NCBI RefSeq assembly: GCF_947500325.1
Contig: NZ_CANMRQ010000003.1
Coordinates: forward strand, 186,001 to 250,000
DNA: 64,000 nucleotides
Direction: 5' to 3'
Source of the DNA: an uncultured Lacinutrix sp.
GTDB taxonomy: Bacteria; Bacteroidota; Bacteroidia; Flavobacteriales; Flavobacteriaceae
The notes beneath the pieces were generated by a model. The model was not told the DNA's origin. It saw nothing but the letters and a program-made list of their open reading frames with translations, and made no database searches. A program made the translations under genes and the position numbers. Below are positions 867-14,327 of the stretch, piece after piece. Each line of letters opens with the position of its first letter. The stretch's first letter is position 1.

Positions 867-888
867 TATACTACAAATTTGCAGTATA
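867..888. promoter_or_regulatory. 22-bp near-perfect palindrome upstream of the glycosyltransferase gene
   Basis: The sequence reads TATACT-n-CAAATTTG-n-AGTATA and is symmetric except for one base pair. It lies 28-49 bp before the glycosyltransferase start. On the minus strand its centre includes CAAATTTG, one base from a TAnnTTTG -7 box, so it could be an operator overlapping a promoter. No cognate repressor is evident. Confidence 0.35.
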
Positions 889-906: not shown

Positions 907-942
907 CTTTGTAGATAGGATACGTTTTACTGTAGACGAATG
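907..942 (-). promoter_or_regulatory. Putative LytTR-type direct repeat, site A
   Basis: Two half-sites 21 bp apart lie 68 bp upstream of the glycosyltransferase start. The upstream half (928-942, plus strand TACTGTAGACGAATG) closely matches those of sites B, C and D. The downstream half (907-921) retains TGTAGA. Two half-sites in the same orientation with a two-turn period is the geometry known for LytTR regulators such as ComE and AgrA. The binder is inferred to be the LytTR regulator at 10129-10839. Confidence 0.55.
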
Positions 943-951
943 GAATAAGTC

Positions 952-2217
952 TTACGATTTAACTTTAATTAGTTTCGATTTAGAATCGTAAATAAAGTAA
1001 CTTATTTGAAAAACAAGCAATAGAAACATTGCTAAAATCTGCATATGCACTACTTCTTCTAAACTGTTATGACAAACAATTACTAATAGCATTTGAAGCA
1101 TTCCAAAAACACCAGAAAGTACAACAGGTATATAATTGTCTAAAGATAAATAGTAATAAGCAAAAATGTTTGAAATTGCGAATACACCAGTAGCCAATGC
1201 ATATTTCCATAATAAAGGTGCTACAGCTAAATAACTATCCCCAAATAAAAGTGTTATTGCTGTTTCTGGGAATAATGCACAAGCAAGAACTATTACAAAA
1301 GCTATAACTGCTATATATCCAACATATTTAAATAAAATTGGAGCTGTTGCTTTTCCTTCTTTTTTAAGTTTTACAACTGTTGGTAGTAATAACATAACAA
1401 ATAGCCAGGCAATAAAATAAACCACACGACCTATTAGTGCTAAAGAAGCATACAATCCAGCGTCATAAGATTCGAAGTAATGTTTTACTAAAAGTATGTC
1501 ACTATTATTAATAATAATTTGAGTTAGCTCGTAAAAAGCAGTGATTATAAAAAAGCTTTTAACTTGTTTCGCTTTTGTTGCTTCTATATTAACAACAGAT
1601 TTAAAGTTTAAGTTTTTAAGCTTAAAAGGCATTAAACCAAAAGCAAAAGAAATTAAAATACCTATTGCTATAACTACAGAAGATTCAATATTAAAGAAGA
1701 GAATTAATGCTAAAGTGATTAATAAACGACTTAGCATTTCGGTTTTATAAGTAATAGATAATGATTTAAATTCTTTTTTTCCTTGAAAAACACCTCTATT
1801 AACACTCATTAAAAAGTATAGTGGTACTCCTATTCCAAAAATAACAAACATACTAGAAGACGTTGTATTGAAAAGTAATTGCAATTGTTTTGAAAAAACA
1901 ATGATTAAAACCCCAAAACCAATACCAACTACAGTAGCATTCTTATAAATTTTGGAAATAAAACTAGTAAAGGTTTTATCTTCAAAAACTACAGAGAATT
2001 TTGCAGTTACTAACTGAAAGGTCATTGCTACAAAAGACAATACAAGTAAAAAAGTAATAAGTACTGCAGCATCTGCAAATTGTGTTGGTCCTAATATGCG
2101 ACCAAGAATAAGGTTGTATAAATAATTCCCTCCATTTACAGCCAGAACACTCAACATAAACAAGCGTTCTGGTGTAAATAGCCTGGTACTTTTATGTAAT
2201 TGCTTACTAGTAATCAT
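952..2217 (-). CDS. Oligosaccharide flippase, polysaccharide biosynthesis (Wzx/MATE-like) family
   Basis: This 421-residue protein is a chain of roughly twelve hydrophobic segments, with YLYNLILGRILGPTQFADAA near the start, a hallmark position of the polysaccharide biosynthesis/MVF flippase superfamily. Members move undecaprenyl-linked oligosaccharides across the inner membrane. Length is normal for the family. Its ATG overlaps the end of the preceding STAS gene by 11 bp, which indicates translational coupling. Together with the glycosyltransferase downstream and the TPR/barrel protein across the divergent promoter, it points to an exported surface polysaccharide. The substrate cannot be told from the sequence. 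Confidence 0.85.
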   Translation of the reverse strand: MITSKQLHKSTRLFTPERLFMLSVLAVNGGNYLYNLILGRILGPTQFADAAVLITFLLVLSFVAMTFQLVTAKFSVVFEDKTFTSFISKIYKNATVVGIGFGVLIIVFSKQLQLLFNTTSSSMFVIFGIGVPLYFLMSVNRGVFQGKKEFKSLSITYKTEMLSRLLITLALILFFNIESSVVIAIGILISFAFGLMPFKLKNLNFKSVVNIEATKAKQVKSFFIITAFYELTQIIINNSDILLVKHYFESYDAGLYASLALIGRVVYFIAWLFVMLLLPTVVKLKKEGKATAPILFKYVGYIAVIAFVIVLACALFPETAITLLFGDSYLAVAPLLWKYALATGVFAISNIFAYYYLSLDNYIPVVLSGVFGMLQMLLVIVCHNSLEEVVHMQILAMFLLLVFQISYFIYDSKSKLIKVKS

Positions 2218-2497
2218 TTGTGTTAAGATTTATCTTTTTTATTAAATTTCCTATGTTGCAGTTTTCATTTGCTAGAACAAATAAGGTTTTACTTCTTCTT
2301 TTAGCTTTTTCAGAAATAAATTGTAATACTTTTAAAGCTGGTTTATCTATTGCTCGTACTTTTTTTAAACTAATGACTACTTCATAGTATCTATCTAAAA
2401 GCGTATCGAAAAACTCTTTGGTACGTTGCGTGTTTTCTTTAGTTAAATCTCCGTGAATTTCAAAAACACCTTTGTTATTTATTATTTCAAAGTTCAT
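2207..2497 (-). CDS. STAS-domain protein lacking a phosphoacceptor Ser/Thr
   Basis: A single STAS fold of 96 residues starting MNFEIINNKGVFEIHGDLT. The ATG at 2497 is preferred to one 81 bp upstream, because the STAS strand starts immediately and the longer form would overlap the preceding STAS gene. STAS proteins act as anti-anti-sigma factors or as partners of transport and polysaccharide machinery. At the loop where SpoIIAA-type proteins have DS/DT this one reads AIDKPALKVL, so it lacks the usual phosphorylated residue and may be a non-switchable partner of the adjacent STAS protein. It overlaps the flippase gene by 11 bp. Confidence 0.72.
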   Translation of the reverse strand: MNFEIINNKGVFEIHGDLTKENTQRTKEFFDTLLDRYYEVVISLKKVRAIDKPALKVLQFISEKAKRRSKTLFVLANENCNIGNLIKKINLNTNDY

Positions 2498-2522
2498 ATC
2501 TGTAAAATTTAGGGTTAGTAAT

Positions 2523-2801
2523 TTATGCCATTTGGCTATGATTAAACTCGTTGTAAATATCTTTGCATCCATTTCCAATGACAGAGAATAATTTATTTTC
2601 TCTTAATGCATTAGCTAATAGTGTTTTAAAAGCAGCAACACCGTTTGTATCAATTTCTTTTACTTTCTCAATATTTACTGTTACCTTTTTAAATGAATTA
2701 ATTACATGTTCAAAATGAATAATAAACGCTCTAGAAGTTGTTGCATTAAGGTTTCCTGATAAATGAAATGTTCCGTTGTTTTCTAAAATTTGTAAAGCCA
2801 T
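2523..2801 (-). CDS. STAS-domain protein (anti-anti-sigma-like)
   Basis: A 92-residue single STAS domain. FHLSGNLNATTSRAF forms the first strands and helix, and EIDTNGVAAFKTL is the phospho-loop, with Thr where classical anti-anti-sigma factors have Ser or Thr. It could therefore be controlled by a serine kinase, but no such kinase is in the window. It is the first gene of the STAS-STAS-flippase operon, 25 bp ahead of the second STAS gene. Putative LytTR site B lies 75 bp upstream of its start. Confidence 0.75.
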   Translation of the reverse strand: MALQILENNGTFHLSGNLNATTSRAFIIHFEHVINSFKKVTVNIEKVKEIDTNGVAAFKTLLANALRENKLFSVIGNGCKDIYNEFNHSQMA

Positions 2802-2875
2802 AATAGTTATTGTTTTTAGTTATTATTTGTTTAACTCTGACGTAAAGATCATCTATGTTTCTGTCTATATCATGA

Positions 2876-2911
2876 AGATTTCGGTGAATGGCGGTTTGCT
2901 GTAGATGAATG
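2876..2911. promoter_or_regulatory. Putative LytTR-type direct repeat, site B
   Basis: The half-sites at 2897-2911 (TGCTGTAGATGAATG) and 2876-2890 (AGATTTCGGTGAATG) match at 10 of 15 positions and are exactly 21 bp apart. The site lies between the minus-strand STAS operon (75 bp to start) and the plus-strand TPR/barrel gene (48 bp to start). Its orientation and spacing match the other three sites for the minus-strand gene, but it could serve both directions. Confidence 0.6.
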
Positions 2912-2958
2912 AATAGCTATTCATCCGTAACTTGTAATTATCAAACAAAGCACCAAAT

Positions 2959-5004
2959 ATGACTTTAAAATCTATACTCACAATTCCTTTTATACTAATA
3001 GTATTTAGCATTAATGCTCAAGAAATGCAAGAAGGTTTTACTTACTTAGAAACTGGTAAATTTCAAAAAGCTGAAGCTTTTTTTGAAACGATATTAAAAG
3101 ACTATCCAAAAAATAAAACGGCACGTTTATGTTACGGGAGAGCTGTTGGTCTAAACGGAAATGCAAAAAAAGCGAACCAGCTATTTATGTATCTAATGCA
3201 CGACTATTCTCAAGACACTGAAGTAAAGCTAAATTTTGGAGAATCATTATTATGGTTAAAGCAATTTGAAACCGCAAAACGCTTTTATAAAAACTTGTTA
3301 AAAGAGATACCTAATAGTTTTCCAGCACTTTTAGGTTACGCCAATACGTTATCAAATTTAAAAGAATATGAAGACGCTTTAGTTTATGTAAACAAAGCAT
3401 TAAATGTTTCACCTGGTAATGCTAATGCATTAACCTCTAAAAAATATATCTATTTAGGTTACGCCTACCAGAAACAACAAGCGCAAGATTATAGTGGCGC
3501 AGAAGCATTATTAAAAGAAAACCTAACATTCTTTAATAATGATAAAGACACATTACTTAATCTAGCTAATTTATATTTAATTGTAAATGAATTACAGAAA
3601 GCTAAAGACACGTATAATCTTATAGCAGAAAATCCAACAAACAAAATAACAGCTTTAAATGGTTTAGCATTGGTTTCTCATTTAAACGGAAAAGATAAAG
3701 ACGCATTAAAAACCAGTAAACAAGCTTTTAATAGTTTAACTAATACAGATGAAACATTAACACAACAAACTACTGAACGTTACATACAAGCTTTAATATG
3801 GAATAAAAAGTATAAAAAAGCAACTTCATTAATTACTGGTTTAATTGAAACTAAACCAAACGACAATTGGGTTTTAGCATTGCGTGCAACATTAAACACC
3901 TATAAAGGCGATTTTAAAAAAAGTCTATTAGATTACAATGCCATTTTAAAAAATGATAGCACGTCTTTTGATGGAAACTTAGGTAAAGCAAATACAAAAA
4001 AAGCCTTAGGTTTATATAACGATGCTTACACCTCTGCTAATAAAACATTATCAATTTTTAAAAACCAAAAAGATGCTGTTAACTTTATAAATATTTTAGA
4101 TAAGCAGTTTACGCCTTTTGTAAAAACTAAAACAGCTTATAGCATTGATAATGGAGATAATGAAGCCTATACCTTTTTAACCAATGTGACAGTTCCTTTA
4201 TCTACAAAACTTAAAGTAAATGGTGTATACAGTTATAGAGATTCTAAAAACACGGTAACAAACAATGAAGCAAAAGCTAATAATATGCTATTTGGTTTAT
4301 CGTACTTATTACATCCAAATATTGGTGTTACAGCAAATATTGGTGTTACAGATATTAATGCTAAATTTAATGACTACACCCAGTTTTTAACAGATATTAC
4401 TTTTAATATCAAACCTTTAAAATTACAAACATTAGACCTTGGTTTTAAACGTGAATGGCAAGATTTTAATGCCGATTTATTAAGTAGAGAAATTGTACAA
4501 AACACCTTATACACTAATTATAACGTAAATACCAATTTTAATTTAGGTTGGTATACGCAATACAATTACACCTGGCAAAACGATAATAATGAGAGGCATT
4601 TATTATTTACCTCTTTATATTATAACCTTTTAGATAAACCATTACTTAAAACAGGACTTAACTACCAATACATAACTTTTAAAGACCAAGTACCTACTAT
4701 CTATTTTAGTCCAGAACGATTTAATGTAATAGAAGTTTTTGTAGATCTTATTAAAAACCAAAAAGGGAAATGGTTTTATAACCTAAATGCTGCTACTGGT
4801 TTTCAATTTATAGAAAACCAAGACAAACAGAGCACCTATAGATTTCAAGGGAAATTAGGTTATAATATTTCTAATAGGTTTACTGCAAATCTTTATGGCT
4901 TGCATAGTAATATAGCCTCTACAACTGCTACAGGTTTTACGTTTACCGAAGTAGGCTTTAGATTAAAATGGGATTTGTTTAGGAAGCCTGTTTTTAGGAA
5001 GTAA
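2959..5004 (+). CDS. TPR-repeat protein with C-terminal outer-membrane beta-barrel (YaiO/PgaA-like architecture)
   Basis: 681 residues: a signal peptide ending SINAQ, tandem TPR repeats over about residues 25-370 (for example YLETGKFQKAEAFFETILKD and GYANTLSNLKEYEDALVYV), then roughly 290 residues of alternating aromatic/polar strands typical of an outer-membrane barrel, ending GFRLKWDLFRKPVFRK. A periplasmic TPR scaffold joined to an outer-membrane pore is the known design of polysaccharide exporters such as PgaA and BcsC. Export of the polysaccharide made by the divergent operon is an inference from this architecture and position. The barrel is short compared with BcsC, and a YaiO-type protein of unknown role is the alternative. 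Confidence 0.7.
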   Translation: MTLKSILTIPFILIVFSINAQEMQEGFTYLETGKFQKAEAFFETILKDYPKNKTARLCYGRAVGLNGNAKKANQLFMYLMHDYSQDTEVKLNFGESLLWLKQFETAKRFYKNLLKEIPNSFPALLGYANTLSNLKEYEDALVYVNKALNVSPGNANALTSKKYIYLGYAYQKQQAQDYSGAEALLKENLTFFNNDKDTLLNLANLYLIVNELQKAKDTYNLIAENPTNKITALNGLALVSHLNGKDKDALKTSKQAFNSLTNTDETLTQQTTERYIQALIWNKKYKKATSLITGLIETKPNDNWVLALRATLNTYKGDFKKSLLDYNAILKNDSTSFDGNLGKANTKKALGLYNDAYTSANKTLSIFKNQKDAVNFINILDKQFTPFVKTKTAYSIDNGDNEAYTFLTNVTVPLSTKLKVNGVYSYRDSKNTVTNNEAKANNMLFGLSYLLHPNIGVTANIGVTDINAKFNDYTQFLTDITFNIKPLKLQTLDLGFKREWQDFNADLLSREIVQNTLYTNYNVNTNFNLGWYTQYNYTWQNDNNERHLLFTSLYYNLLDKPLLKTGLNYQYITFKDQVPTIYFSPERFNVIEVFVDLIKNQKGKWFYNLNAATGFQFIENQDKQSTYRFQGKLGYNISNRFTANLYGLHSNIASTTATGFTFTEVGFRLKWDLFRKPVFRK

Positions 5005-5171
5005 TTAGTCTATATATTCTCTTTTTTCTAAATCAATTATTCCTTATTTTTCTTCTTTAATTCTAATTCAACCAATAAAGGTAAACTTTAACAAAAACTA
5101 GTAATTAATAAAATTAATTACTAACATTATTCTTTTCATTTATAAAATATGTATACTTTTTTTGATTACAC

Positions 5172-5801
5172 TTAATCTTTTTTAAAAACACCACTACTCG
5201 CTTCAAATAACTCTCCAACAATTTCGAATTCATCAATCCAATAAAAATCGTTCTTCCAGTCAATATTTTCATTTTCCAATATTCGTTTAATTAAATTGAG
5301 AGTGTCGTCATCTATTTTAAATTTGATTTTATGGAGATTTTCAATCATAATCTTAAATCCTAAAAACCATTTCTCATTTAATATTTTTTCATTACAATCT
5401 TCAATAATTCTTTGAACACTATTTCTAATTGTTATTTCGCTATGTTTTTTAGAACTATAAACGAATTGAATAAGGTTTAAATATTCGACCTTTTTAACAA
5501 AGCGTCGGGTATTTTCTTGACCACTTACTTTAATATTTAATTTGTCATTTAAACGTCCTAAATTTAAATCCTCACCTTTTTCCTCTGGATTATATCCATT
5601 TTTTAATCCATAAACAATTACTTGTCTAACAATATGCGGTGTTATATAATCTAATTGGGCAATTAGTTTTTGACCATTTGTTTTTGCTGAAATAATATAT
5701 AAATTAAGCTTTTCATCATATTCTATATCACCAGAGGCGATCCAAAAATATTCATGACCATTTACTATTATCTTTCTTGACTTCTTTTTAGGGAATGACA
5801 T
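5172..5801 (-). CDS. Hypothetical protein, 209 aa
   Basis: I do not recognise this protein. It has no signal peptide or membrane segment and opens with a basic stretch (MSFPKKKSRKIIVNG), so it is probably cytoplasmic. It contains a compact beta-rich N-terminal part (HEYFWIASGDIEYDEKLNLYIIS) followed by a helical charged C-terminal half. It converges with the TPR/barrel gene and is separated from it by about 165 bp without a clear terminator. No neighbour hints at a function. Confidence 0.55.
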   Translation of the reverse strand: MSFPKKKSRKIIVNGHEYFWIASGDIEYDEKLNLYIISAKTNGQKLIAQLDYITPHIVRQVIVYGLKNGYNPEEKGEDLNLGRLNDKLNIKVSGQENTRRFVKKVEYLNLIQFVYSSKKHSEITIRNSVQRIIEDCNEKILNEKWFLGFKIMIENLHKIKFKIDDDTLNLIKRILENENIDWKNDFYWIDEFEIVGELFEASSGVFKKD

Positions 5802-5986
5802 TTTCTTCTAATTAGCTTTTATTTTGAAAATCTTATTTAATTTTTAATAGCCGTTTTATCTATGATTTCCAGTTAAAAGCCAATATAATAAAAGTACGAA
5901 CAATTTCGGTTAGCAAATTCAAAAGCATTAGTAATATATTTTATTAATTGATTTTATAAAGATTACCGCTATTGCGAGACATTTAT

Positions 5987-6598
5987 TTATTCGCAATTTT
6001 CATCAATAAAATCAGTTATAGAAGTATTTTTTTTCTTTGAGCTTTTTCTGAATCTCTCTAATTTTTCTTTACACTTAGGAAATGTTTTTTTTGCATTTCT
6101 TATATCTTCATTTATATTACCTGGTTTAAACCATACAATTGCATTTCTACTATTTGGTTTAGTGACTGCTATAAATTGCCTATCTCTCTGGCTATCTGAA
6201 TAAGAGTAATAATAAAAATCATAATTATTTCCTTTTTTAGTCAAATTAGCATATACTTTAGAGTCATCACTATAAGTAATTGTATAGTATTTATTATATC
6301 CCTTTTCAAGTTCTTTTTTTCCAAAACCTAAGAATCCATCGGCTCTTTTTAACTTACTATAGAACATAGAAAAACTATCAACTTCAACAGGTTTGTATTT
6401 TACACATTTACCTCTTTTTTTTCGAGATTTCCCCTTACACATTTTTATTTTTCTAGTGCTATTTAAGTTTTTTTTAATCACGCCAGTTATTACTGTTCTA
6501 TCCTTTAAATATAGAGTATCCAACATTTTATTGTTATCGTTTTTTTGTCCAAAAGCAATTGTAGAACTTAATATTAAAAGCAAAAGTATTTTTTTCAT
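5987..6598 (-). CDS. Secreted hypothetical protein, 203 aa
   Basis: A signal peptide (MKKILLLLILSSTIAFGQ) is followed by a very basic, lysine-rich mature chain with four cysteines (KMCKGK, KRGKC, PKCKEK and the C-terminal ENCE) and several tyrosine-rich strands (YNKYYTITYSDDS, YDFYYYSYSDS). The cysteines could form disulfides in the periplasm. It is not a family I can name. It stands alone, with 185 bp before the next minus-strand gene and about 400 bp of non-coding sequence upstream. Confidence 0.55.
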   Translation of the reverse strand: MKKILLLLILSSTIAFGQKNDNNKMLDTLYLKDRTVITGVIKKNLNSTRKIKMCKGKSRKKRGKCVKYKPVEVDSFSMFYSKLKRADGFLGFGKKELEKGYNKYYTITYSDDSKVYANLTKKGNNYDFYYYSYSDSQRDRQFIAVTKPNSRNAIVWFKPGNINEDIRNAKKTFPKCKEKLERFRKSSKKKNTSITDFIDENCE

Positions 6599-6997
6599 CT
6601 TTATTTAATTTATGAGATTCTTACAATACGTAGGTAAAAATATTAAGCAATGGTTAACTTATACTAAACGTAGTATATAAAAATATAATAGCACAATATC
6701 AATAGTATCTATATCTAAAACAAACACAAATTAATATTCGCAGCTGGATAATTCATATTTGTATTTAAAACATGTTTTAGTAATTACTAGATAGTAAATT
6801 ATTGATACATATTCAACCATTAGGTTAAATAATGAATACTCAAAAACTTGTCATTAATAGATAAGGAAGAATCCTTTTAAATTTTAAGTTTTAATAAAAG
6901 GAGATTCTTCAGTCGTTCCTTCTTCTGAATGACAAGCCACTAAAATAAAGAAAGGGCAAAAGATTTCTCCTTTGCCCCATTCTCAGCTATCAATCAA
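6599..6997. other. Non-coding gap between hypothetical gene and secreted-protein gene
   Basis: About 400 bp with no convincing gene on either strand. It is strongly A/T rich. It contains an imperfect inverted repeat (AAGAATCCTTTT at 6867-6878 with its complement at 6896-6909, interrupted by two extra bases) and, nearer the 9598-6998 gene, a clean terminator hairpin listed separately. Confidence 0.5.
6954..6977 (-). terminator. Rho-independent terminator of the 866-aa secreted protein gene
   Basis: A 7-bp stem GGGCAAA/TTTGCCC with a 10-nt loop lies 21 bp beyond the stop codon of the gene ending at 6998. Read on the minus strand it is followed by TTTCTTTATTTT. Confidence 0.7.
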
Positions 6998-9598
6998 TCA
7001 CCTAATCATGAGTTTTAATATTTTATAGTCTTGTTCTTGGCTTACTATTTTACAGAAATATAATCCTGTACTTAGTTTACCTTTATTTAATTGTATTTCA
7101 TTTATACCTTTTACGGTTTTATAATCAACCTGTTTTACTTGTTTACCTAATTGATCGTACACTACTAATGTTACATTTGTAGATGCATTTGCATTAAAAT
7201 ATACTGTCGTATTTGCAGACATAGGGTTTGGTATTATTGCAAGTCTTGTAGTTTCTTTTTCAAATGTATCTACTGCCAATGTATTTGTATTAGAGAATCT
7301 TACATCTTGTAAATGCATTGTTTTTGTTACCAATGAACCATCTTCTGAAGCCATAGTAAAAACTATAGTTACAACATCGTCTAATACTAATTCTTGCCCG
7401 TTTGGTGCTGTAAAATCTGAAAATGGGATATTAAAATCTTGAAAATTATCGGCTAATGCTATAGTTGTTTTATGCTGTAGTTCCCAGTTAGTAATACTTT
7501 GTTTTACAAACGTAATAAGTAAGTTACCTGTTCCTTTAGCCTTTAAATTAAAGCTATTATAATCTGTTAAATCTACAGCCTTAAATCTTGGTGTCAATGC
7601 TCTATACGCTGCAAAATAAGTACTTGTTGTTGCCTCAAGGTTTACGTTTCTTTCTATTGGAAAATCTGTAGTCTCAAAACTATTAGTGTTTGGTAATACT
7701 TCGTAATTATTAACTACTGTTGTTGGTTGTGCATCGTCAATTCCCCATGGTCCATCAGACATAAATAAATCATCTGGAGTTGCTATGCCATCACCTATTC
7801 TAAAACCAACATCGAATAGGTTTCCTGTTTGTACTTCTAAATCTGTAATGTATCCGTTTAGTGCTATAGATGAACTTATAGTATTTATATCGCTTGTTTC
7901 TGTTACTCTTAAACCTGCATCTAATGTAACATCTTGCGTACCATTTGTGTTTACTATTTGTAAATCTAACTCACCATTTATATACTTTCCTTTTCTAACA
8001 AAAACTGTTGGCGGTGTTGAGTTATTGTAATCTGATATTGGTTTTTCAATATTTAATAAATTTACTACTTCTTCTGCTAATAGATATAAATCGTCTAGTG
8101 AGTTTGACCAAATTTGAAAGTTATAGAAAGTAACATCATCTTCGTATCTATCTAAATTCCAATGGCTTTCTATAGCGAAGTTAGCATCATCATTAACTAC
8201 TTTAGCAGATAAGCTTAACACAAACTCTATAGTATTATCTGCGTTTTTAATTAACGACTTTATAAACGATTGTCCATTAATATCTATAGTAGATACAGAA
8301 ATTAATTGTGCTCCTAACAAACGATCACAAATGTATTTTGTATGCTCATAAACGCCATCTTCTGTTTTTAAAGCTAGAATAGAAGCCACAGATGTATCGT
8401 TATTTATGTAATCTACTGAATAGATTTCTGTTGCATTAGTAATATTTAATAAATCTGTGGCTGTAGATTCTACAACATAATCTTCATTAATAACGCTTAA
8501 TGGAATAAAATCTTCTAATTGAAAACCTGTAAACCCATTTCTTTGTGCATAATTTGCTGTCTTCACGACTCTTTTTGCTGTCTCTTTATTAAACTTATAA
8601 CTAGTTTTTGCTCTGTTATAACTACGTTTATTTATTTTATCTGATAATCTATTGTTACTTTCTAAACCACCAGCATTAGCACTAGATGTTGGTGCTTCTA
8701 CTACTGCACAATCACCAAAAGTAGAACATGAAGGATCTTCACAATCTATTAAACCATCACCGTCATCATCTATACCATTATCACAAACCTCTTGTGGTAC
8801 TGGAGCTGTTGGGCAACGTGCACCATCATTACTTGCACTAGAAGGTCCAAAAGCAAACAAACTTGAATCCATACCATTTGTACCATCTACATCCTGTACA
8901 TTTTGTATAACATATATAGTTCCTGTTTGATTTGCAGAGACATAGAAACGTCCAGAGGCATCAAAATAGACTGCGCCATATGTGTAATTCAACCCAGATA
9001 AAACAGGCACTTCTCCAAGTGTTAGTACTACTCCATTAGACGGATCGATACGGTATAAAATATTATAGGTTTTTTCTACTGCATATAAATTTCCATCTAC
9101 TGCATTAAATGCCCAATCATGTATGCTTAAATTTTGCGATAAATCTTCGGTTGCTAAGTGTTGAGAATATGTTGGAGACGTTGGATTCAAGTCTACTTTA
9201 TAATAGGTTGTGCCACCACCTTTTAAATAGTATACGCCTTGAGCACTTATATCACCTATATACCTGTTAGAGTTAGGCAATTCATCTATATAAAATGTAG
9301 TAGTATTAAAATCTTGACCTATTCTTACAATAGTCTTTTCTGGCGTACTTAACGATCCCCAAATATAGCCGTCAACAGGATTATAAGCTGCGGCATTAAT
9401 ATTTCCTGGTGTTATATCTGAAGCCATTAGATAAAAATTCCCAGAAGCTAAATCTATAGAATACAAATCGTTATACTGAAATAAGTATGCGTCATAATCA
9501 CAATAAAAAGGAAAAATTTGTGCTTGACTATTAAAATTGAAAAATAAAATAACAATTAGAATAAATTGGTTTTTATATGAGTAAAATTTTTGATCCAT
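6998..9598 (-). CDS. Large T9SS-secreted protein: propeller-like N-terminus, CBM-like domain, type A sorting domain
   Basis: 866 residues. After the signal peptide (to about residue 27, SQAQ) come repeated strands resembling a DUF6923/YVTN-type propeller (DLYSIDLASGNFYLMA, DGNLYAVEKTYNILYRIDPSNG). Next is an acidic, calcium-binding-like linker (CDNGIDDDGDGLIDCEDPSC) and a middle region of unknown fold. A carbohydrate-binding-like jelly roll follows around residues 640-770 (DYNSFNLKAKGTGNLLITF, LQDVRFS). The C-terminus is a classical T9SS type A sorting domain (IPNPMSANTTVYF to ILKLMIR), so the protein is exported and anchored on the cell surface. LytTR site C lies 80 bp upstream, linking it to the H-NOX circuit. 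An adhesin or polysaccharide-associated role is inferred. Confidence 0.75.
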   Translation of the reverse strand: MDQKFYSYKNQFILIVILFFNFNSQAQIFPFYCDYDAYLFQYNDLYSIDLASGNFYLMASDITPGNINAAAYNPVDGYIWGSLSTPEKTIVRIGQDFNTTTFYIDELPNSNRYIGDISAQGVYYLKGGGTTYYKVDLNPTSPTYSQHLATEDLSQNLSIHDWAFNAVDGNLYAVEKTYNILYRIDPSNGVVLTLGEVPVLSGLNYTYGAVYFDASGRFYVSANQTGTIYVIQNVQDVDGTNGMDSSLFAFGPSSASNDGARCPTAPVPQEVCDNGIDDDGDGLIDCEDPSCSTFGDCAVVEAPTSSANAGGLESNNRLSDKINKRSYNRAKTSYKFNKETAKRVVKTANYAQRNGFTGFQLEDFIPLSVINEDYVVESTATDLLNITNATEIYSVDYINNDTSVASILALKTEDGVYEHTKYICDRLLGAQLISVSTIDINGQSFIKSLIKNADNTIEFVLSLSAKVVNDDANFAIESHWNLDRYEDDVTFYNFQIWSNSLDDLYLLAEEVVNLLNIEKPISDYNNSTPPTVFVRKGKYINGELDLQIVNTNGTQDVTLDAGLRVTETSDINTISSSIALNGYITDLEVQTGNLFDVGFRIGDGIATPDDLFMSDGPWGIDDAQPTTVVNNYEVLPNTNSFETTDFPIERNVNLEATTSTYFAAYRALTPRFKAVDLTDYNSFNLKAKGTGNLLITFVKQSITNWELQHKTTIALADNFQDFNIPFSDFTAPNGQELVLDDVVTIVFTMASEDGSLVTKTMHLQDVRFSNTNTLAVDTFEKETTRLAIIPNPMSANTTVYFNANASTNVTLVVYDQLGKQVKQVDYKTVKGINEIQLNKGKLSTGLYFCKIVSQEQDYKILKLMIR

Positions 9599-9677
9599 AA
9601 TAGCTTTGTTTAAAGATTATAGAACTAAATTAGAAAGTAAACGCTTCCTTTTTTTAATTTTTCGATTGACGAGATTA

Positions 9678-9713
9678 ATGCATCGTTAAATGAACTTTTA
9701 CTATAGACGAACA
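9678..9713 (-). promoter_or_regulatory. Putative LytTR-type direct repeat, site C
   Basis: The upstream half-site 9699-9713 (TACTATAGACGAACA) is clearly related to those of sites A, B and D. The partner 21 bp away (9678-9692) is degenerate. The site is 80 bp upstream of the 866-aa secreted-protein gene and beyond both terminators of the H-NOX operon, so it marks an independent promoter. Confidence 0.5.
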
Positions 9714-9772
9714 GTATTTCTTATCTATTACAGTATACTTTTCCATAGAAGTTACAGTGTATTATATATAGA

Positions 9773-9802
9773 AAAAGGCAAAAGATGACTCTTTTGCCTT
9801 TT
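9773..9802 (-). terminator. Rho-independent terminator, distal, for the H-NOX/LytTR operon
   Basis: A perfect 12-bp stem (AAAAGGCAAAAG/CTTTTGCCTTTT) with a 6-nt loop, followed on the minus strand by further T residues. It lies about 330 bp past the LytTR stop codon and before site C, so it insulates the next gene from read-through. Confidence 0.65.
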
Positions 9803-9960
9803 CGACTGCTATTACTTCGTAATTAAGGTAGAATTATACTACAAATATATAAACACATATTAAATATCATCTGAATTTTTCGACAAAAAACGCATTGCTA
9901 TCGATTAAATGATTAAAAAACACGATTAACAGATATTTTGCACGAAAAAAGTGACTAAAA

Positions 9961-9996
9961 AGAAATCGCCTAAAAAATATATTTTAGACGATTTCT
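9961..9996 (-). terminator. Rho-independent terminator, proximal, for the H-NOX/LytTR operon
   Basis: A 15-bp stem with one mismatched pair (AGAAATCGCCTAAAA with TTTTAGACGATTTCT) around a 6-nt AT loop, 133 bp beyond the LytTR regulator stop. The 530-bp gap from 9599 to 10128 otherwise holds only the second hairpin and LytTR site C. I see no gene in it. Confidence 0.6.
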
Positions 9997-10128
9997 AAGC
10001 TACTATTAAACCTACACGTTATGCAGAATTTTAATCAAATATAAAAGGTCTCTTTTAGTAAGACTATTATTTTTAGATAGTATATCATTCTAAAAAGTTG
10101 AGATGCAAATAAATGTAGATATGTGGTA

Positions 10129-10839
10129 TTATAATAGGTTAAGTCGTTTCATTAACTCTGGTCTATTAGATCGACTTACTGGAATAACGTCTTTTTTAAT
10201 AAGTACACTATTGTCTTCTATATCAATTATTTTTTTAATATTAATAACATAAGAACGGTGTACTTTTAAAAACAAATCTTCAGGTAATTTCTCTTCTATT
10301 TTTTTTAAAGTAGAATGTACTGTATAATTTTTATCTTCTGTCTTTACATTAATATAATCGCCTTTAGCTTCTATAAGGTATATACTAGGTATATCTATCT
10401 TAATAAGACGTCTATCTATATTAATATATAAATCGTTACCAGAAGATGTTTCTGTATTAGTATTTAAAACAGTGTGCTCTTCTTTTATCGAAAAATTTTT
10501 CGCTTTTTGAATAGCCTTTTCAAAACGTGGTAATAGTATTGGTTTCACTAAATAATCAACAATACAATCGTACTCAAAAGCATCAATTGCAAATTTAGAA
10601 TCTGAAGTCGTTAAAATTATTTTTGGAGGATTTTTTAAACTTTGTATAAAATCGAAACCTGTAAAATCTGGCATATGTATATCTAAAAAAATGAGGTCAA
10701 CCTCATTTTGATTTAAATACTTCATAGCTTGAATTGCATTTGGAAATTCTTCAAGAACGTTTAATTCTTTTATTTGTGAACATAATTGATTTATAATAAC
10801 TCTTGCAGTAGTTTCATCATCTATAATAATACAATTCAT
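10129..10839 (-). CDS. LytTR-family response regulator, output of the H-NOX phosphorelay
   Basis: 236 residues: a receiver domain (acidic pair D7/D8, phosphoacceptor D53 in FLDIHMPDFTG, Thr in LTTSDS, Lys in YLVKPI) and a C-terminal LytTR DNA-binding domain (IYLIEAKGDYINVKTEDKNYTVHSTLKKIEE, FLKVHRSYVIN). LytTR regulators bind paired 9-10 bp direct repeats about 21 bp apart. It is the last gene of the five-gene operon, 9 bp after the HPt gene, so the HPt protein is the likely phosphate donor. The most economical targets are sites A-D, including one before its own operon. Confidence 0.9.
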   Translation of the reverse strand: MNCIIIDDETTARVIINQLCSQIKELNVLEEFPNAIQAMKYLNQNEVDLIFLDIHMPDFTGFDFIQSLKNPPKIILTTSDSKFAIDAFEYDCIVDYLVKPILLPRFEKAIQKAKNFSIKEEHTVLNTNTETSSGNDLYINIDRRLIKIDIPSIYLIEAKGDYINVKTEDKNYTVHSTLKKIEEKLPEDLFLKVHRSYVINIKKIIDIEDNSVLIKKDVIPVSRSNRPELMKRLNLL

Positions 10840-10848
10840 ATAAATACG

Positions 10849-11178
10849 TTAAATCGTGGTCAAATAATTAGTAATGTTTTCTAAGATGCTTTCAAAATCA
10901 TCTTTTAGAGTTGTATTACCTTCATCTAAATTATTTTCATAATCTACAGCAATCTCATAACTCTTTTCAAGACCTAAAATACTAATTTTATGTTTAAGTT
11001 TATGCACGTTTCCAGAAGCTTCTTCATAGTTTTTTGCTTCAATGTTTTTTATATAAATTGCTTTTTCTTCAGGAAATTCCTTCTTTATAACAGCTATTAG
11101 TTTTGCTTTAAAGATACTATCTCCTCCAGACAAGCTATCTATATATGATGAATTAGGTTGTTCATTTAGGTGTTTCAT
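10849..11178 (-). CDS. HPt (histidine phosphotransfer) protein
   Basis: 109 residues, an all-helical HPt domain with the phosphorylatable His59 in NVHKLKHKISILGLEK, matching the canonical HxLKG motif and downstream LG. It would shuttle phosphate from the upstream kinase to the receiver of the LytTR regulator. It starts 17 bp inside the end of the kinase gene and ends 9 bp before the LytTR gene. Free-standing HPt proteins next to H-NOX genes are known from Shewanella and Vibrio NO/biofilm networks, but there the outputs are different response regulators. Confidence 0.88.
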   Translation of the reverse strand: MKHLNEQPNSSYIDSLSGGDSIFKAKLIAVIKKEFPEEKAIYIKNIEAKNYEEASGNVHKLKHKISILGLEKSYEIAVDYENNLDEGNTTLKDDFESILENITNYLTTI

Positions 11179-13258
11179 TAGGGGCTTTTTTTAAGGTAAA
11201 ATAAAAAGTAGTGCCTTTTTCTATTTCAGATTCTAACCATATGTTTCCATTATGTAAGTTAACAATCTTCTTTACTATAGATAATCCTATTCCAGTAGAA
11301 TCTTCACTTTTATTTAATGTATTAAAAATTTTAAAAATTTTGTCATAAAATTTTTCATCAATACCAATGCCATTATCTTTAATTGAAAATTGATATTGCT
11401 CTGTTTGTTCTACTACATCAATATCAATATAACCTTTATCTTTATCTATAAACTTAACGGCATTACTAATGAGGTTTTGAAATAATTGCTGTAATTTTGT
11501 TTTGTCCCCTTTTATAATTGGTAAGGTGTTATGAACCTTAATTTCTATGTGTTCTGGAATGTATAGTATTTTAATTAATTCTTTAACTACACTATTTAAA
11601 TCTACATTTGATATTTGAGAATTATCTGCGCTTACACTTGAATAGTTTAACACATCTGAAATAAGCTGTTCCATTTTTTCAAGTGTCGTTTCTATATGCT
11701 TTATGTTTTGAAGGCTAGCAGCGTCTAAATTCCCTATATTATCTTCTTTTAACCAACTTACTAGAGCATAAATACTTCGCAATGGTGATTTTAAATCGTG
11801 AGACACTATATGAGCATATTCTTGAAGTTCATCATTACTTTTTTCAAGAGCTTTTAAAAGTGTTTTATTTCTATTTTCAACTTTTTGTCTTTCTCTTAAA
11901 TTAATTGCACTCTTTAATTGCATTGCAACTAAACTTGCTATATTCTTAATCGTTTTTAAATGTGCTTTAGTAAAGTAATTTTTATCTATATGCTCGGAAT
12001 CAATAATACCAATAACTTCACCATCATTTAAAATAGGCACTGTTAATTCTGAAAAACGCCTTTGCCCATCAATTACATAATCTGGTTCTTGAGAAGTATC
12101 ATTTATTATTTTTGCTTTCTTTGATTTAGCAACTCTACCAACAATACCTTTTCCTAATTGCAAACTAAACTTGTTATCTGAAGCATTTTTATAATTAATG
12201 TCCTCTCCGTATGCTGCTATTTTCTCTATTGTACCAATATCTTTATTAACAAGATAAATAACACAATCTTCTGTTCCTAAAAAGGCTGCAATATTAGTAG
12301 TAATTTCTTGTGCTATTTCATAGATATCTATTTTTCCTAATATAGATTTAGCCACGTCATTAATCATATCTATAATTAATGTTTTCTCCCTTTCAGACGT
12401 TATATCTTCAATTAAAGCAACTTGGTATTTTATATTATTATAGCTATCTCTTACAGCATTTACATTCGTTTTCGCCCATATAAATGAGCCGTCTTTTTTC
12501 TTATATCGCTTATCAATTACAAAATTATCTAGAGTACCAGAATTCATTTTTGTTAAAAGCGCTTTAGATTCGGGAAAATCTTCTATAAATGAAACATCTT
12601 TAATTGTTTTTTGTTTTAATTCTTCTGCATTGAAACCTAATAAATTTTGAAACGCTGCATTGGTTTTTATCATCTGGCCTAATTGCGTAAGCGCAATTCC
12701 AAAAGGTGCATTATCAACAATAGTATCTAATTGTTTTTTTTGTTCTTCAATTAATTCTCGTGTTCGCCTATCTTCTGTAATATCTCTAACGATGCCTTGA
12801 GCAGCTATTGGTTTTTTATCCTTATCAAAAACAATACTTGCATTGATATGTACCCATTTAACTGCTTTAGATTTAGTATACACTCTAGCTTCATAGTTTT
12901 TAAAAAAACCTTTGCCTTGTAAATCCATAAAAGAAGACATTGCATATTGCATATCTTCTTTATATATAAGATCTATAACATTTACGGATTCTTCTTCAAT
13001 ATTATAACCAAAAAAGTGAGTTGCAGCTTCATTAAACTTAATAATATTGCCTTTAAGATCCATAACTACATAGGCATCTAGAATGTTTTCAAAAACTCCT
13101 TGAAGTTGTGATGATTTTTCGTCTAGAAGTTGCTCTAATTTTAAAGACGTTTGGTAAAGCTCTCTTGACTTTTCTTCTAAAATTTTCTCAGCAGCTTTTC
13201 TAGCCGCTTTTTCTCTTTGCAGTGCACGTTTTAATATGTCAATATCTTCTTGACTCAT
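11162..13258 (-). CDS. PAS-PAS-GAF sensor histidine kinase associated with H-NOX
   Basis: 698 residues without membrane segments. Order: an N-terminal charged coiled coil (about 1-50), PAS at about 52-160, PAS at about 175-290, GAF at about 295-450, a helix, HisKA with His487 (YAHIVSHDLKSPLRS), and HATPase_c with the N box at LISNAVKF, G1 DNGIGI (628-633) and G2 GIGLS. It has no receiver of its own, so phosphate must go to a separate receiver or through the HPt partner. Its start overlaps the H-NOX stop by one base (TAATG), which implies tight stoichiometry. H-NOX most likely controls its autophosphorylation through direct contact, as known for H-NOX-associated kinases. The GAF domain may add a second input. 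Confidence 0.88.
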   Translation of the reverse strand: MSQEDIDILKRALQREKAARKAAEKILEEKSRELYQTSLKLEQLLDEKSSQLQGVFENILDAYVVMDLKGNIIKFNEAATHFFGYNIEEESVNVIDLIYKEDMQYAMSSFMDLQGKGFFKNYEARVYTKSKAVKWVHINASIVFDKDKKPIAAQGIVRDITEDRRTRELIEEQKKQLDTIVDNAPFGIALTQLGQMIKTNAAFQNLLGFNAEELKQKTIKDVSFIEDFPESKALLTKMNSGTLDNFVIDKRYKKKDGSFIWAKTNVNAVRDSYNNIKYQVALIEDITSEREKTLIIDMINDVAKSILGKIDIYEIAQEITTNIAAFLGTEDCVIYLVNKDIGTIEKIAAYGEDINYKNASDNKFSLQLGKGIVGRVAKSKKAKIINDTSQEPDYVIDGQRRFSELTVPILNDGEVIGIIDSEHIDKNYFTKAHLKTIKNIASLVAMQLKSAINLRERQKVENRNKTLLKALEKSNDELQEYAHIVSHDLKSPLRSIYALVSWLKEDNIGNLDAASLQNIKHIETTLEKMEQLISDVLNYSSVSADNSQISNVDLNSVVKELIKILYIPEHIEIKVHNTLPIIKGDKTKLQQLFQNLISNAVKFIDKDKGYIDIDVVEQTEQYQFSIKDNGIGIDEKFYDKIFKIFNTLNKSEDSTGIGLSIVKKIVNLHNGNIWLESEIEKGTTFYFTLKKAPNETPK

Positions 13259-13797
13259 TAATTTTTATTAATGATAAATTTAACTTCTGTACCGTCTTCC
13301 TTTATTTTTTCAAGAACGATAGTTGCAGTACTATTAAAATGTTCGAATGTTTTATTCATTAAACCTAAGCCAAAATGATGCATTGCTCGACTAGATTTAT
13401 AAATCATAATTAATGAATTTTCTGTTTTTTCTTCAACAATAAAGGTAGGTAGTTCTGCATCTGGATATATTTTTCTAACCTCAACATGAATATGGTTTTC
13501 AATTGATGCTAACATTTCTATAGGATCTTTATAAGTTGCTAAAAGCCCAGGATAACTATCCTCTAAAACACTAAAAAAATGTTCTGCATATACTAATAAT
13601 AAATCATCTATTGCAATACCTGTATTGTTACTTAAGTTTTTTAATAGCTCTAACATTTCGGAAAACTTATAAGTTCCTACTGCTGTATAGACACCTTGAG
13701 ATTCTAATTTAGATTGTGTAATGATTTTATCGACCATTTCTAATCCAAATTTATCTTCAACTAAATCTAAAAACTCTGTAAATACAATACCTTTCAT
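13258..13797 (-). CDS. H-NOX haem-based nitric oxide sensor
   Basis: 179 residues of the H-NOX (haem NO/oxygen binding) family, opening MKGIVFTEFLDLVEDKFG. The haem-propionate motif YxSxR is intact (Y133, S135, R137 in YKSSRAM). The proximal haem ligand is best assigned to His104 in HIHVEVRKIYPD, placed seven residues before Tyr111 as His105 is before Tyr112 in guanylate cyclase. His102 is a less likely alternative. Stand-alone H-NOX proteins of facultative bacteria bind NO and control a co-encoded kinase. No distal-pocket Tyr for O2 binding is evident by eye. It sits between a CheY-like gene and the kinase. Confidence 0.92.
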   Translation of the reverse strand: MKGIVFTEFLDLVEDKFGLEMVDKIITQSKLESQGVYTAVGTYKFSEMLELLKNLSNNTGIAIDDLLLVYAEHFFSVLEDSYPGLLATYKDPIEMLASIENHIHVEVRKIYPDAELPTFIVEEKTENSLIMIYKSSRAMHHFGLGLMNKTFEHFNSTATIVLEKIKEDGTEVKFIINKN

Positions 13798-14211
13798 TTA
13801 TATTTTTATTAATTCGTTTATACTCCAATAGGCTAATAGTTTTTCAATTTTAGAGACATAATCCTCGTATTTTAATGGTTTTAAAACATATCCAGCAATA
13901 CCAATTTTATAGCATTCTAAAAGGTCCTTTTGATTGTTGGATGTAGTAAGTATAATGGTAGGAATATACTTTAGAATATCGTTATTCTTTAAAATTGTTA
14001 AAAATTCTATACCATTAATTTTTGGCATATTTAAATCTAATAAAATAATATCAGGAAGCACCCCTTTTTTTTCTAAAATTTCAAGAGCATCTTCTCCATT
14101 ATTAGCTTCAATGATATTATGATTAAGATTTAACTTCGAAATTGTCCTATTCAATTTCATGACTTCTATAGTGTCATCTTCTATTAATAGAACGTTTAGT
14201 ATTTTGCTCAT
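13798..14211 (-). CDS. CheY-like single-domain response regulator
   Basis: 137 residues, receiver domain only: acidic pocket E11/D12/D13, phosphoacceptor D59 in LLDLNMPKINGIEF, Thr in LTTSNN and Lys in VLKPLKYEDY. It has no output domain, so it acts by protein contact or as a phosphate sink. It is the first gene of the operon and abuts the H-NOX start. It could compete with the LytTR receiver for phosphate from the HPt protein. LytTR site D lies 81 bp upstream, and TATTTTTC (14239-14246, minus strand) is one base from a TAnnTTTG -7 box. Confidence 0.88.
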   Translation of the reverse strand: MSKILNVLLIEDDTIEVMKLNRTISKLNLNHNIIEANNGEDALEILEKKGVLPDIILLDLNMPKINGIEFLTILKNNDILKYIPTIILTTSNNQKDLLECYKIGIAGYVLKPLKYEDYVSKIEKLLAYWSINELIKI

Positions 14212-14291
14212 AGAGGGAGAGTTTTATATAATAAAGCTGAAAAATAGTTTAATTCCATAAACTTATTATTCTATTTCGTTTAACCTATAAT

Positions 14292-14327
14292 AAGTGTCGG
14301 TGAGTAACCTTTAACTGTCGACGAATG
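14292..14327 (-). promoter_or_regulatory. Putative LytTR-type direct repeat, site D (autoregulatory)
   Basis: The half-sites 14313-14327 (AACTGTCGACGAATG) and 14292-14306 (AAGTGTCGGTGAGTA) match at 10 of 15 positions, 21 bp apart. On the minus strand the cores read ACAGTTAAA and ACACTTATT with 12 bp between them, close to the direct repeat known for ComE. The site lies 81 bp upstream of the operon that encodes H-NOX and the LytTR regulator. Confidence 0.65.

Follow-up and report, generated by a model that had tools for sequence, protein, structure and literature searches.

Within 64,000 nucleotides of an uncultured Lacinutrix sp. (contig NZ_CANMRQ010000003.1), referred to below as the window, an operon for a haem NO-binding (H-NOX) protein and several genes for polysaccharides and a secreted protein are preceded by similar short repeats, which raises the question of what regulator, responding to what signal, would act at these sites. 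A first-pass annotation had identified four of them (A to D), and had interpreted them as an NO-sensing regulon comprising the H-NOX operon itself, a protein secreted by the type 9 system (T9SS), and the STAS/flippase and glycosyltransferase units. The sites are given here together with a fifth, E, from the same genome; the E values are those obtained with a profile built only from relatives.

Site A, 907..942, minus strand: repeat upstream of a glycosyltransferase GT4 gene (E 3.2e-4)
Site B, 2876..2911, minus strand: direct repeat upstream of the STAS-STAS-flippase genes, in the divergent gap to a TPR/barrel gene (E 3.7e-6)
Site C, 9678..9713, minus strand: the weakest repeat, upstream of the gene for a T9SS-sorted DUF6923 protein (E 0.014; matrix score 9.9)
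Site D, 14292..14327, minus strand: direct repeat (slots 1 and 2) upstream of the H-NOX/LytTR operon (E 4.8e-9)
Site E, contig C3 174712-174747, 11.3 kb beyond the window: precedes a receiver-GT2 fusion gene that starts 80 bp away

The motif is CCATTCRTCKACACTTA, repeated at 21 bp, and the five sites span less than 26 kb. The coordinates originally assigned to sites A to D all held, as did their common orientation toward a minus-strand gene and the distances of 68, 75, 80 and 81 bp from their near edges to the start codons (at 839, 2801, 9598 and 14211, respectively). Also the reported match between partners at 10 of 15 positions was confirmed for B and D. Because the copy-to-copy identity at 21 bp is 10/15 in both of these sites but 6/15 in A and 5/15 in C, only these two have a clear second copy, and that of A and C is poor. 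Site C and the DUF6923-type sites in general are weak.

Site D stands before the operon that encodes the LytTR regulator, in which the genes are found in the order RR1-H-NOX-HK-Hpt-LytTR.

13798..14211, minus strand: RR1, a single-domain receiver of 137 aa (PF00072, 6.1e-23)
13258..13797, minus strand: H-NOX haem NO-binding protein of 179 aa (PF07700, 5.7e-39)
11162..13258, minus strand: histidine kinase (HK) with PAS-PAS-GAF-HisKA-HATPase domains (Pfam), adjoining H-NOX
10849..11178, minus strand: Hpt-like phosphotransferase of 109 aa (PF01627, E 0.018, below the cut-off) with a VHKLKHK-type motif
10129..10839, minus strand: LytTR response regulator that is proposed to bind sites A to E (PF04397, 1.1e-21; PF00072, 4.7e-17)

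No receiver domain is found among the Pfam matches of the kinase, and His59 of the Hpt-like protein is invariant in 16 aligned sequences. H-NOX proteins are marked by a proximal haem histidine and a YxSxR motif. The window protein is identical at 159 of 179 residues to the solved H-NOX of Kordia algicida (chain 6bdd_A, PMC7356049), and both His104 (in HVEVRKIYP) and YKSSR are visible in the alignment. The relevant sections of that paper treat the Kordia protein alone, without operon or regulon. No match to FIST, a second family of NO sensors, was found in the window's own genome.

The genes next to sites A, B and C are as follows.

1..839, minus strand: 5' part of a glycosyltransferase GT4 gene that leaves the window, 402 aa in full (PF13692, 4e-19, via L001)
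952..2217, minus strand: polysaccharide flippase, Polysacc_synt_3 (PF13440, 8.6e-12)
2207..2497, minus strand: STAS-domain protein b (PF01740, 2.3e-5, for the open frame 2207-2578)
2523..2801, minus strand: STAS-domain protein a, STASa (PF01740, 6.5e-5)
2959..5004, plus strand: TPR protein (TPR families), divergent from site B and syntenic in relatives
6998..9598, minus strand: T9SS-sorted secreted protein of 866 aa (DUF6923, Por_Secre_tail; Pfam)

The start of STAS protein b is placed at the first in-frame ATG after STASa, at 2497; the longest open frame begins at a TTG at 2578. The TPR part of 2959..5004 shows weak, partial similarity to PgaA (4.8e-12) and BcsC (0.0034), below the cut-offs, and the C-terminal part may resemble an outer-membrane barrel, as inferred from the sequence alone. 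Downstream of site E, the receiver-GT2 fusion gene is found with a second GT2 gene and a gene for mannose-6-phosphate isomerase.

The AT-rich composition and the poor second copies in A and C could suggest that the sites resemble each other by chance, or that they are mobile repeats or a structural RNA element. This explanation is virtually ruled out. The relatives-only profile (R1) was built from 25 sites before the H-NOX operons of other genomes and none from the window's own; these had been selected from the relatives' operon sites because they had a 21-bp step and scored reasonably well, and their gap-free alignment is therefore by construction. The four best places in the window according to R1 are D, B, A and C, followed by one at E 0.27. 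When a 36-bp matrix was trained with one site left out, each of A to D came next in rank after the three used for training when all positions of the window were scored. Of 200 Markov-simulated windows, a single one held one match as good as C and none held two, whereas the real window holds four. Further observations that argue against chance, mobile repeats or an RNA element are the absence of sites from 1500 control windows and the conserved position of the sites before the same genes (see below); chance similarity as such was rejected on the basis of the leave-one-out test, R1 and the simulated windows.

In the whole genome, the four best R1 matches are D (top), E, B and A, and site C is absent from the 14 matches at E<=10. 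An equal frequency of the motif inside coding sequence had been named at the outset as an observation that would refute the regulon. In this genome the four best matches are all intergenic, and of eight inspected weaker matches six lie inside an open frame of at least 70 codons and two in none. These eight belong to the ten matches that rank below A (the best being C9:27601, E 0.037); they have pair-matrix scores of at most 1.5, and in none of them does an open frame of at least 70 codons start 30-400 bases downstream, i.e., no wider regulon was found among the matches inspected.

Conservation was assessed at the corresponding loci of relatives, where the site counts depend on matrices trained within the same family. 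A half-site matrix, trained on the same loci that it scored (40 were fetched; L068, in which H-NOX was not found by tblastn, was dropped), was compared with 312 control windows: the pair score exceeded their maximum in 27 of 39 loci and their 99th percentile in 33. The step in the 27 operon sites is 21 bp in 25 and 22 bp in two, with 20, 21 and 22 bp allowed. In a set of 80 named loci, at least three of them from training genomes, sites with a score >=16 were counted. Such a site is found before the operon in 74 of the 78 loci that include its 5' end, before STASa in 33/36, GT4 in 21/39, the DUF6923 gene in 17/47 and the flippase in 6/41. No such site was found before the LytTR gene inside the operon in the 80 loci (0/80), nor in control windows (0/1500). 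Furthermore, an ortholog of the receiver-GT2 gene is found in 62 genomes, 61 of which have the LytTR ortholog, within 40 kb in 50. Seven syntenic relatives that were also compared had been picked for several motif matches; no such selection applies to the count of 62. The coupling is not universal, because in three genomes (G227, G011 and G172) the receiver-GT2 gene resides 15.7-16.4 kb from H-NOX and away from LytTR; the motif matches listed for G011 and G172 are also away from H-NOX.

The sites stand at fixed distances upstream of candidate sigma-A promoters. The candidate -7 boxes in the window each deviate by one mismatch from TAnnTTTG.

14239..14246, minus strand: -7 box of the site D promoter, TATTTTTC, offset 81 from the site start
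9625..9632, minus strand: -7 box of the site C promoter, TAATTTAG, offset 81
2843..2850, minus strand: -7 box of the site B promoter, GATCTTTA, in the +61 register
874..881, minus strand: -7 box of the site A promoter, CAAATTTG, in the +61 register

For 112 sites (score >=18 in the fetched loci, overlaps removed), TAnnTTTG starts at +81..83 in 28 and at +60/61 in five, i.e., 33 boxes at these two distances, and at most once at every other offset. The shorter TAnnTTT is found at +79..84 in 45 of the 112, compared to a shuffle mean of 3.4 and a maximum of 12. Sites A and B use a register other than that of C, D and E, and because their candidate boxes are at +61, their partner "21 bp away" fills the promoter-proximal slot. 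In 34 B-type sites of named relatives, [TG]AnnTTT[GA] was counted at +61 in 19 instances and at +29, a position within the site, in 10. A -7 box in reverse orientation, which could serve the divergent TPR/barrel gene, was not found at B, with one match among these 34 sites.

This geometry bears on the possibility that the LytTR regulator represses these promoters, or that at B and E it represses the divergent partner and activates in the other direction. A repressor, HnoC, is part of some H-NOX systems (PMC8738867). Site B could block the TPR/barrel promoter, given that 34-49 bp separate the site from the divergent start codon in 25 of the 32 relatives in which this distance was measured. We consider repression improbable. 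The distance from a site to the -7 box downstream of it takes one of two discrete values that differ by 20-21 bp, which fits contact with the polymerase better than occlusion, and HdrR, which has its repeats upstream of -35, is an activator (PMC6193735).

Which protein would bind the sites is a separate question. The genome encodes 27 LytTR proteins and binding by the operon LytTR is only inferred, such that one of the other 26, or an unrelated factor, could be the actual binder and the operon LytTR a passenger. The data leave little room for this alternative. When all 27 LytTR loci (~3.3 kb each) were scored, a nearby site was found only at that of the H-NOX operon (9.9, site C), while the best score among the other 26 was 3.2; a motif common to the LytTR loci of this genome is thereby rejected. 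In addition, presence of the motif tracks this LytTR ortholog even without H-NOX, and in G196, which has the ortholog, the receiver-GT2 gene and the LytTR gene are on separate contigs and the receiver-GT2 site is kept (score 36.7).

The association with the LytTR regulator rather than with the sensor is seen in 299 sampled Flavobacteriaceae genomes, in which H-NOX is found in 105 and the LytTR ortholog in 113. The motif (E<=0.01) is present in 85 of 98 genomes with both, in 11 of 15 with LytTR alone, in 2 of 7 with H-NOX alone and in 6 of 179 with neither. From this tally, which assumes that the H-NOX, motif and LytTR searches drew the same 299 genomes (G000-G298), we conclude that the motif follows the LytTR relay and that H-NOX is an optional input. 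Two of the genomes scored as LytTR without H-NOX are affected by contig ends: G048 does carry an H-NOX gene, cut by the end, and in G062 the contig stops inside the kinase gene. The 13 of 98 genomes without a motif were obtained in a search with stricter filters. Arranged by H-NOX status, the motif is found in 87/105 genomes with and 17/194 without H-NOX, or in 62/80 H-NOX genomes upon subtraction of the 25 training genomes, all of which are H-NOX positive. An equal frequency without H-NOX, which would have refuted the original proposal, is thus not observed; the proposed tie of the regulon to H-NOX must nevertheless be corrected to one with the LytTR relay. A motif belonging to H-NOX itself was rejected: G227 has an H-NOX operon without LytTR and without site, and its LytTR ortholog is found with the motif elsewhere, while G005 and G115 have the motif but no H-NOX.

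The role of NO is less certain. The regulon and the binding by LytTR may be real and the main input something else, e.g., oxygen, redox, envelope or small-molecule cues sensed by the PAS-PAS-GAF kinase, which H-NOX merely tunes. In support of this reading, the kinase itself contains PAS and GAF domains; G005, G115, L228, L247 and L255 lack H-NOX in the operon but retain the kinase, Hpt, LytTR and sites; and three g127 genomes have a divergent H-NOX (26-28% identical) in the H-NOX slot. Because H-NOX is missing from the otherwise intact operons of G005 and G115, NO cannot be the signal everywhere. On the other hand, in the 78 named loci with a true RR1, the operon carries both H-NOX and FIST in 44, only H-NOX in 30, neither in four and only FIST in none, i.e., H-NOX is present in 74/78, and FIST in 44/74 of these but 0/4 without H-NOX. 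Two loci are cut before RR1 and are not included (L272, with FIST upstream, and L248, which has H-NOX); five of 45 FIST matches are below 35% identity. On balance we consider a main input other than NO possible but less likely, and NO as the signal remains an inference from H-NOX and the relatives' FIST genes.

The preferred reading is thus that A to E are probably operators of the LytTR regulator at 10129-10839, the end point of an H-NOX/kinase/RR1/Hpt relay that would activate its own operon and a polysaccharide cluster. While the sites, their conservation, synteny, geometry and co-occurrence with LytTR are established by sequence, there are no binding or expression data, and the binding, order of phosphotransfer, activation, NO signal, polysaccharide product and direction of the response are all inferred. 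A tandem of two LytTR molecules would occupy CATTCRTCKACACTTA half-sites that are offset by one 21-bp step, equal to two helical turns, and would bring sigma-A RNA polymerase to promoters with a TAnnTTTG-like -7 box at a fixed distance; a degenerate third half-site would sit where the -33 element is expected. Given the box position described in PMC9723704, transcription is predicted to start about 12 bp downstream of the first base in the +81 or +61 box. Phosphate would pass from the kinase, with bound H-NOX as an NO-dependent modulator, via RR1 and Hpt to LytTR, and in many relatives a second, NosP-like FIST protein may feed the same Hpt/LytTR. Phosphorylated LytTR is predicted to switch on its own operon, i.e., positive feedback, and four nearby units: receiver-GT2 (with the second GT2 and mannose-6-phosphate isomerase), GT4, STAS-STAS-flippase and the T9SS-secreted protein. 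The output would be a surface polysaccharide. NO most probably inhibits the kinase and lowers this output, as inferred from the analogous H-NOX/HahK and NosP/NosK systems. The regulon proposed by the first-pass annotation is supported, and conserved synteny and promoter geometry fit it.

H-NOX pathways described in a review (PMC8738867) include those of Vibrio, Shewanella and Legionella, whose outputs are c-di-GMP, quorum sensing or syp. The closest is that of Vibrio fischeri, where H-NOX/HahK acts through the Hpt domain of SypF to control the syp exopolysaccharide (PMC8738867). In both systems a histidine kinase adjoins H-NOX; an Hpt step and an exopolysaccharide cluster as the target, both only proposed here, would be further common features. 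In contrast to V. fischeri, the system described here has RR1 and the Hpt-like protein as separate proteins, a LytTR regulator with a proposed operator motif as the output, a linked target cluster, a flavobacterial -7 box, a T9SS protein and, in relatives' operons, often a FIST sensor. The latter recalls the NosP (FIST)-NosK pairs (PMC12570481): in L282 the gene after FIST (6714-8878) encodes a kinase in which no sensor domain is recognised, as is described for NosP/NosK. Differences from NosP-NosK are a LytTR output instead of a c-di-GMP-type output domain and the lack of a FIST match in the window's own genome.

LytTR operators are defined as two repeats of 9-11 nt with 11-13 bp between them (YpdB, PMC4847170), a spacing met by the 21-bp step in A to D. 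The HdrR/BrsR repeats of the LRS type, ACCACTTAT-12 bp-ACCACTTAC (PMC6193735), share the 21-bp direct-repeat step upstream of the promoter and the sequence ...CACTTA. Autoregulation, proposed here, is another feature in common with such LytTR systems. The LRS arrangement of a LytTR regulator with an inhibitory membrane protein is not met by our operon. The half-site CCATTCGTC differs at one base of nine from the core CCGTTCGTC of AlgR, which also acts on alginate (polysaccharide) genes (PMC4064291). Unlike HdrR/BrsR, YpdB and AlgR, the present system has a longer conserved half-site (~16 bp), a three-slot array in two registers, a flavobacterial -7 box, a proposed phosphorelay input and no LRS membrane inhibitor. 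No prior account of this H-NOX-LytTR regulon was found in the open-access literature searched, by title and abstract start; subscription papers were mostly outside the scope.

A bolder reading, which is conceivable, is that of a mobile, self-contained "gas-to-coat" module of Bacteroidota, in which one or two haem NO sensors (H-NOX, NosP-like FIST) would signal through the LytTR relay to a polysaccharide cluster via tandem operators, the relay also phosphorylating the receiver fused to GT2. If so, NO would affect the coat along two routes, through transcription and by a direct effect on the GT2 enzyme. A proposed LytTR recognition motif is now available for a group in which a single genome can hold 27 LytTR proteins, and the Flavobacteriaceae H-NOX relay has a defined putative operator, a defined promoter geometry and a compact set of proposed targets. 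The question of the role of NO in marine Bacteroidota is thereby reduced to a simple reporter experiment, and with the same layout recurring in many related marine bacteria, control of the sugar coat by a gas sensor becomes directly testable.

The first-pass annotation had placed four minus-strand direct repeats with a 21-bp step, sites A-D, in the window; its coordinates, the common orientation of the sites toward the downstream minus-strand gene and the distances from near edge to start codon all held. A search of the whole own genome with R1, a sequence-only profile built from 25 sites that precede H-NOX operons in other genomes and that were picked for the 21-bp step, revealed an additional site, E. 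The sites, the identity of their two copies and the genes behind them are as follows:

Site A, 907-942, minus strand: 68 bp from the start codon, copies identical at 6/15 positions; a GT4 glycosyltransferase gene and, beyond the window, a weak-DUF1302 gene (0.012), an MMPL gene and a LolA-like gene.
Site B, 2876-2911, minus strand: 75 bp, 10/15; two STAS proteins and a flippase; divergently, a TPR protein with a C-terminus barrel-like in appearance.
Site C, 9678-9713, minus strand: 80 bp, 5/15; a DUF6923 protein, T9SS-sorted.
Site D, 14292-14327, minus strand: 81 bp, 10/15; RR1 (a single-domain receiver), H-NOX, a PAS-PAS-GAF kinase without receiver, an Hpt-like protein and a LytTR response regulator.
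Site E, C3:174712-174747, on the same contig: a receiver-glycosyltransferase fusion (receiver-GT2), a second GT2 and a mannose-6-phosphate isomerase; divergently, a 1029-aa membrane protein, a 406-aa protein and a GH2-like hydrolase.

Together, A-E cover about 26 kb. On the window, the four best R1 matches were D (E value 4.8e-9), B (3.7e-6), A (3.2e-4) and C (0.014), and the next-best place reached 0.27. On the whole genome, the top four were D, E, B and A, with a fifth match at 0.037, and C is missing from the list of 14 matches. The score of C was equalled in one of 200 simulated windows, never twice within one window. C-type sites are weak, a point against the proposed LytTR regulon. Two adjoining secreted-type proteins (window 14412-15440 and 16349-20341) share a near-identical C-terminal region ending in GPPTSTYLFTQQLPEGANN. 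The window also encodes another LytTR protein, at about 41088-41357 on the minus strand (G000:C3:227088-227357), with no site close by.

On the gene strand, the consensus is CCATTCRTCKACACTTA, about 4 bases and YATTCRTCKACACTWA, and a third, degenerate copy (ATTAAACGAAAT-like) lies one further step downstream. The motif TAnnTTTG, which in Flavobacterium psychrophilum is the sigma-A -7 box, spanning -12 to -5 (PMC9723704), begins at +81, +82 or +83 from the site start in 28 of 112 sites with a repeat-matrix score of at least 18 and at +60 or +61 in five; every other offset occurs at most once. The looser TAnnTTT is found at +79 to +84 in 45 of these 112 sites; shuffled controls averaged 3.4 and never exceeded 12. 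Of the five sites, E alone has a complete -7 box, at +81; the boxes of C and D (also at +81) and those of A and B (at +61) each carry one mismatch. In 34 B-type sites from named relatives, the pattern [TG]AnnTTT[GA] occurs 19 times at +61; a further 10 occurrences, at +29, fall within the site. Since the registers are one repeat apart, the pair occupies either slots 1 and 2 or slots 2 and 3 of a three-slot array. In 25 of the 32 relatives for which the distance was measured, the divergent TPR/barrel gene starts 34-49 bp away from site B (in the window, 2911-2959). Because a -7 box for this gene was looked for at site B and not found, it is possible that the site governs or blocks both directions. 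Several relatives have a second, mostly weaker site some 400-460 bp farther upstream than the operon site (fetched loci L066 563, L067 554, L079 538 and L093 641).

Gene order was compared in seven relatives chosen for multiple motif matches. The order operon, DUF6923, TPR-barrel with STAS and flippase, GT4, opposite-strand trio and receiver-GT2 was kept in all seven (the DUF6923 match in one, G175, is just 30%), and most same-direction units are preceded by sites. Without selection for motif matches, a receiver-GT2 ortholog was found in 62 of 299 family genomes, 61 of which have a LytTR ortholog, 50 with both on one contig within 40 kb. In one genome, G196, the receiver-GT2 gene and LytTR are on different contigs and the receiver-GT2 site is retained (score 36.7). 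Upstream sites were also counted in 80 named loci (Algibacter, Winogradskyella, Aquimarina, Dokdonia, Psychroserpens, Flavivirga and others), at least three of which overlap with the R1 training genomes.

Sites scoring at least 16 in the named loci
Upstream of operon: 74/78
Upstream of STASa (first STAS gene behind B): 33/36
Upstream of GT4: 21/39
Upstream of DUF6923: 17/47
Upstream of flippase: 6/41 (median distance 95 bp)
Before LytTR within operon: 0/80
Control windows: 0/1500

Each of the four operons scoring below 16 has at least one half-site recognisable by eye, and the flippase may be the first gene of its unit in its six loci.

Across the 299 family genomes, H-NOX is present in 105, a LytTR ortholog (E<=1e-60) in 113 and an R1 match (E<=0.01) in 104. 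The motif was found in 85/98 genomes with H-NOX and LytTR, 2/7 with H-NOX only, 11/15 with LytTR only and 6/179 with neither. The 25 training genomes are all H-NOX positive; when they are left out, the motif is found in 62/80 H-NOX genomes. Within the LytTR-only class, G048 carries an H-NOX cut off by a contig end and the contig of G062 stops inside the kinase gene; intact H-NOX-less operons keep the site in G005 and G115 and, among the named loci, in L228, L247 and L255 (the last possibly the same genome as G115). From these class counts and retained sites, the motif goes mainly with the LytTR relay. In two genomes, G082 and G279, the relay occurs without H-NOX, and no site reaches 15. The 13/98 genomes with both H-NOX and LytTR and no motif match count against the proposed regulon. 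So does the finding that the relay can be split within a genome: reading the sequence of G227 (L192, L084) showed H-NOX and receiver-GT2 at one place and LytTR and motif at another, an arrangement judged only from match lists in G011 and G172.

In a separate draw of 296 genomes from the phylum, R1 matched 14 (E<=0.001): 13 belong to the same family, and the remaining one, G448, to a different family within the class. Here (L280/L281), the H-NOX operon, DUF6923, TPR-barrel, flippase, GT4, opposite-strand trio and receiver-GT2 are found in unchanged order. Three sites there score above 26 and another scores 14; within the 32.5 kb retrieved, neither STAS nor the isomerase turned up. Since another family holds most of the cluster with its sites, the module may have been transferred.

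The usual LytTR operator consists of 9-11 nt repeats with 11-13 bp between them (PMC4847170). LRS repeats, of the ACCACTTAT-12 bp-ACCACTTAC type (PMC6193735), share with the sites described here a 21-bp step and a terminal ACTTA, and the AlgR core, CCGTTCGTC, differs by one base from the CCATTCGTC of these sites (PMC4064291). Because these three lines agree, the sites are probably LytTR operators, a classification made without binding or other biochemical data.

The window H-NOX is identical at 159/179 residues to chain 6bdd_A, used as Kordia algicida H-NOX (PMC7356049). In three g127 genomes, the protein in the H-NOX slot is just 26-28% identical to it (L282 3473-4015, L283 2606-3148, L284 7450-7992), and the two scanned match PF07700 (5.2e-49, 4.6e-50); these genomes carry a different H-NOX clade, a sensor exchange in an otherwise conserved relay. 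In L282, a FIST protein (PF08495 2.3e-44) comes before a kinase in which no sensor domain was recognised (6714-8878). In NosP, FIST is the domain that senses NO through haem (PMC12570481). Of 78 named loci with the operon 5' end, 44 have H-NOX and FIST in the operon, 30 H-NOX only, four neither and none FIST without H-NOX. Identity to the L282 FIST has a median of 56%, with 5/45 matches below 35%; the own genome has no FIST match. As two unrelated NO-sensor families share one operon, the signal is inferred to be NO, or a haem-bound gas. The nearest functional parallel to this relay is that of V. fischeri, where HahK likely acts on syp exopolysaccharide through the Hpt domain of SypF, an effect that H-NOX inhibits with NO (PMC8738867). 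By analogy with this HahK/H-NOX precedent and that of NosP/NosK, we lean, if only slightly, toward the prediction that NO would lower the output of the relay.
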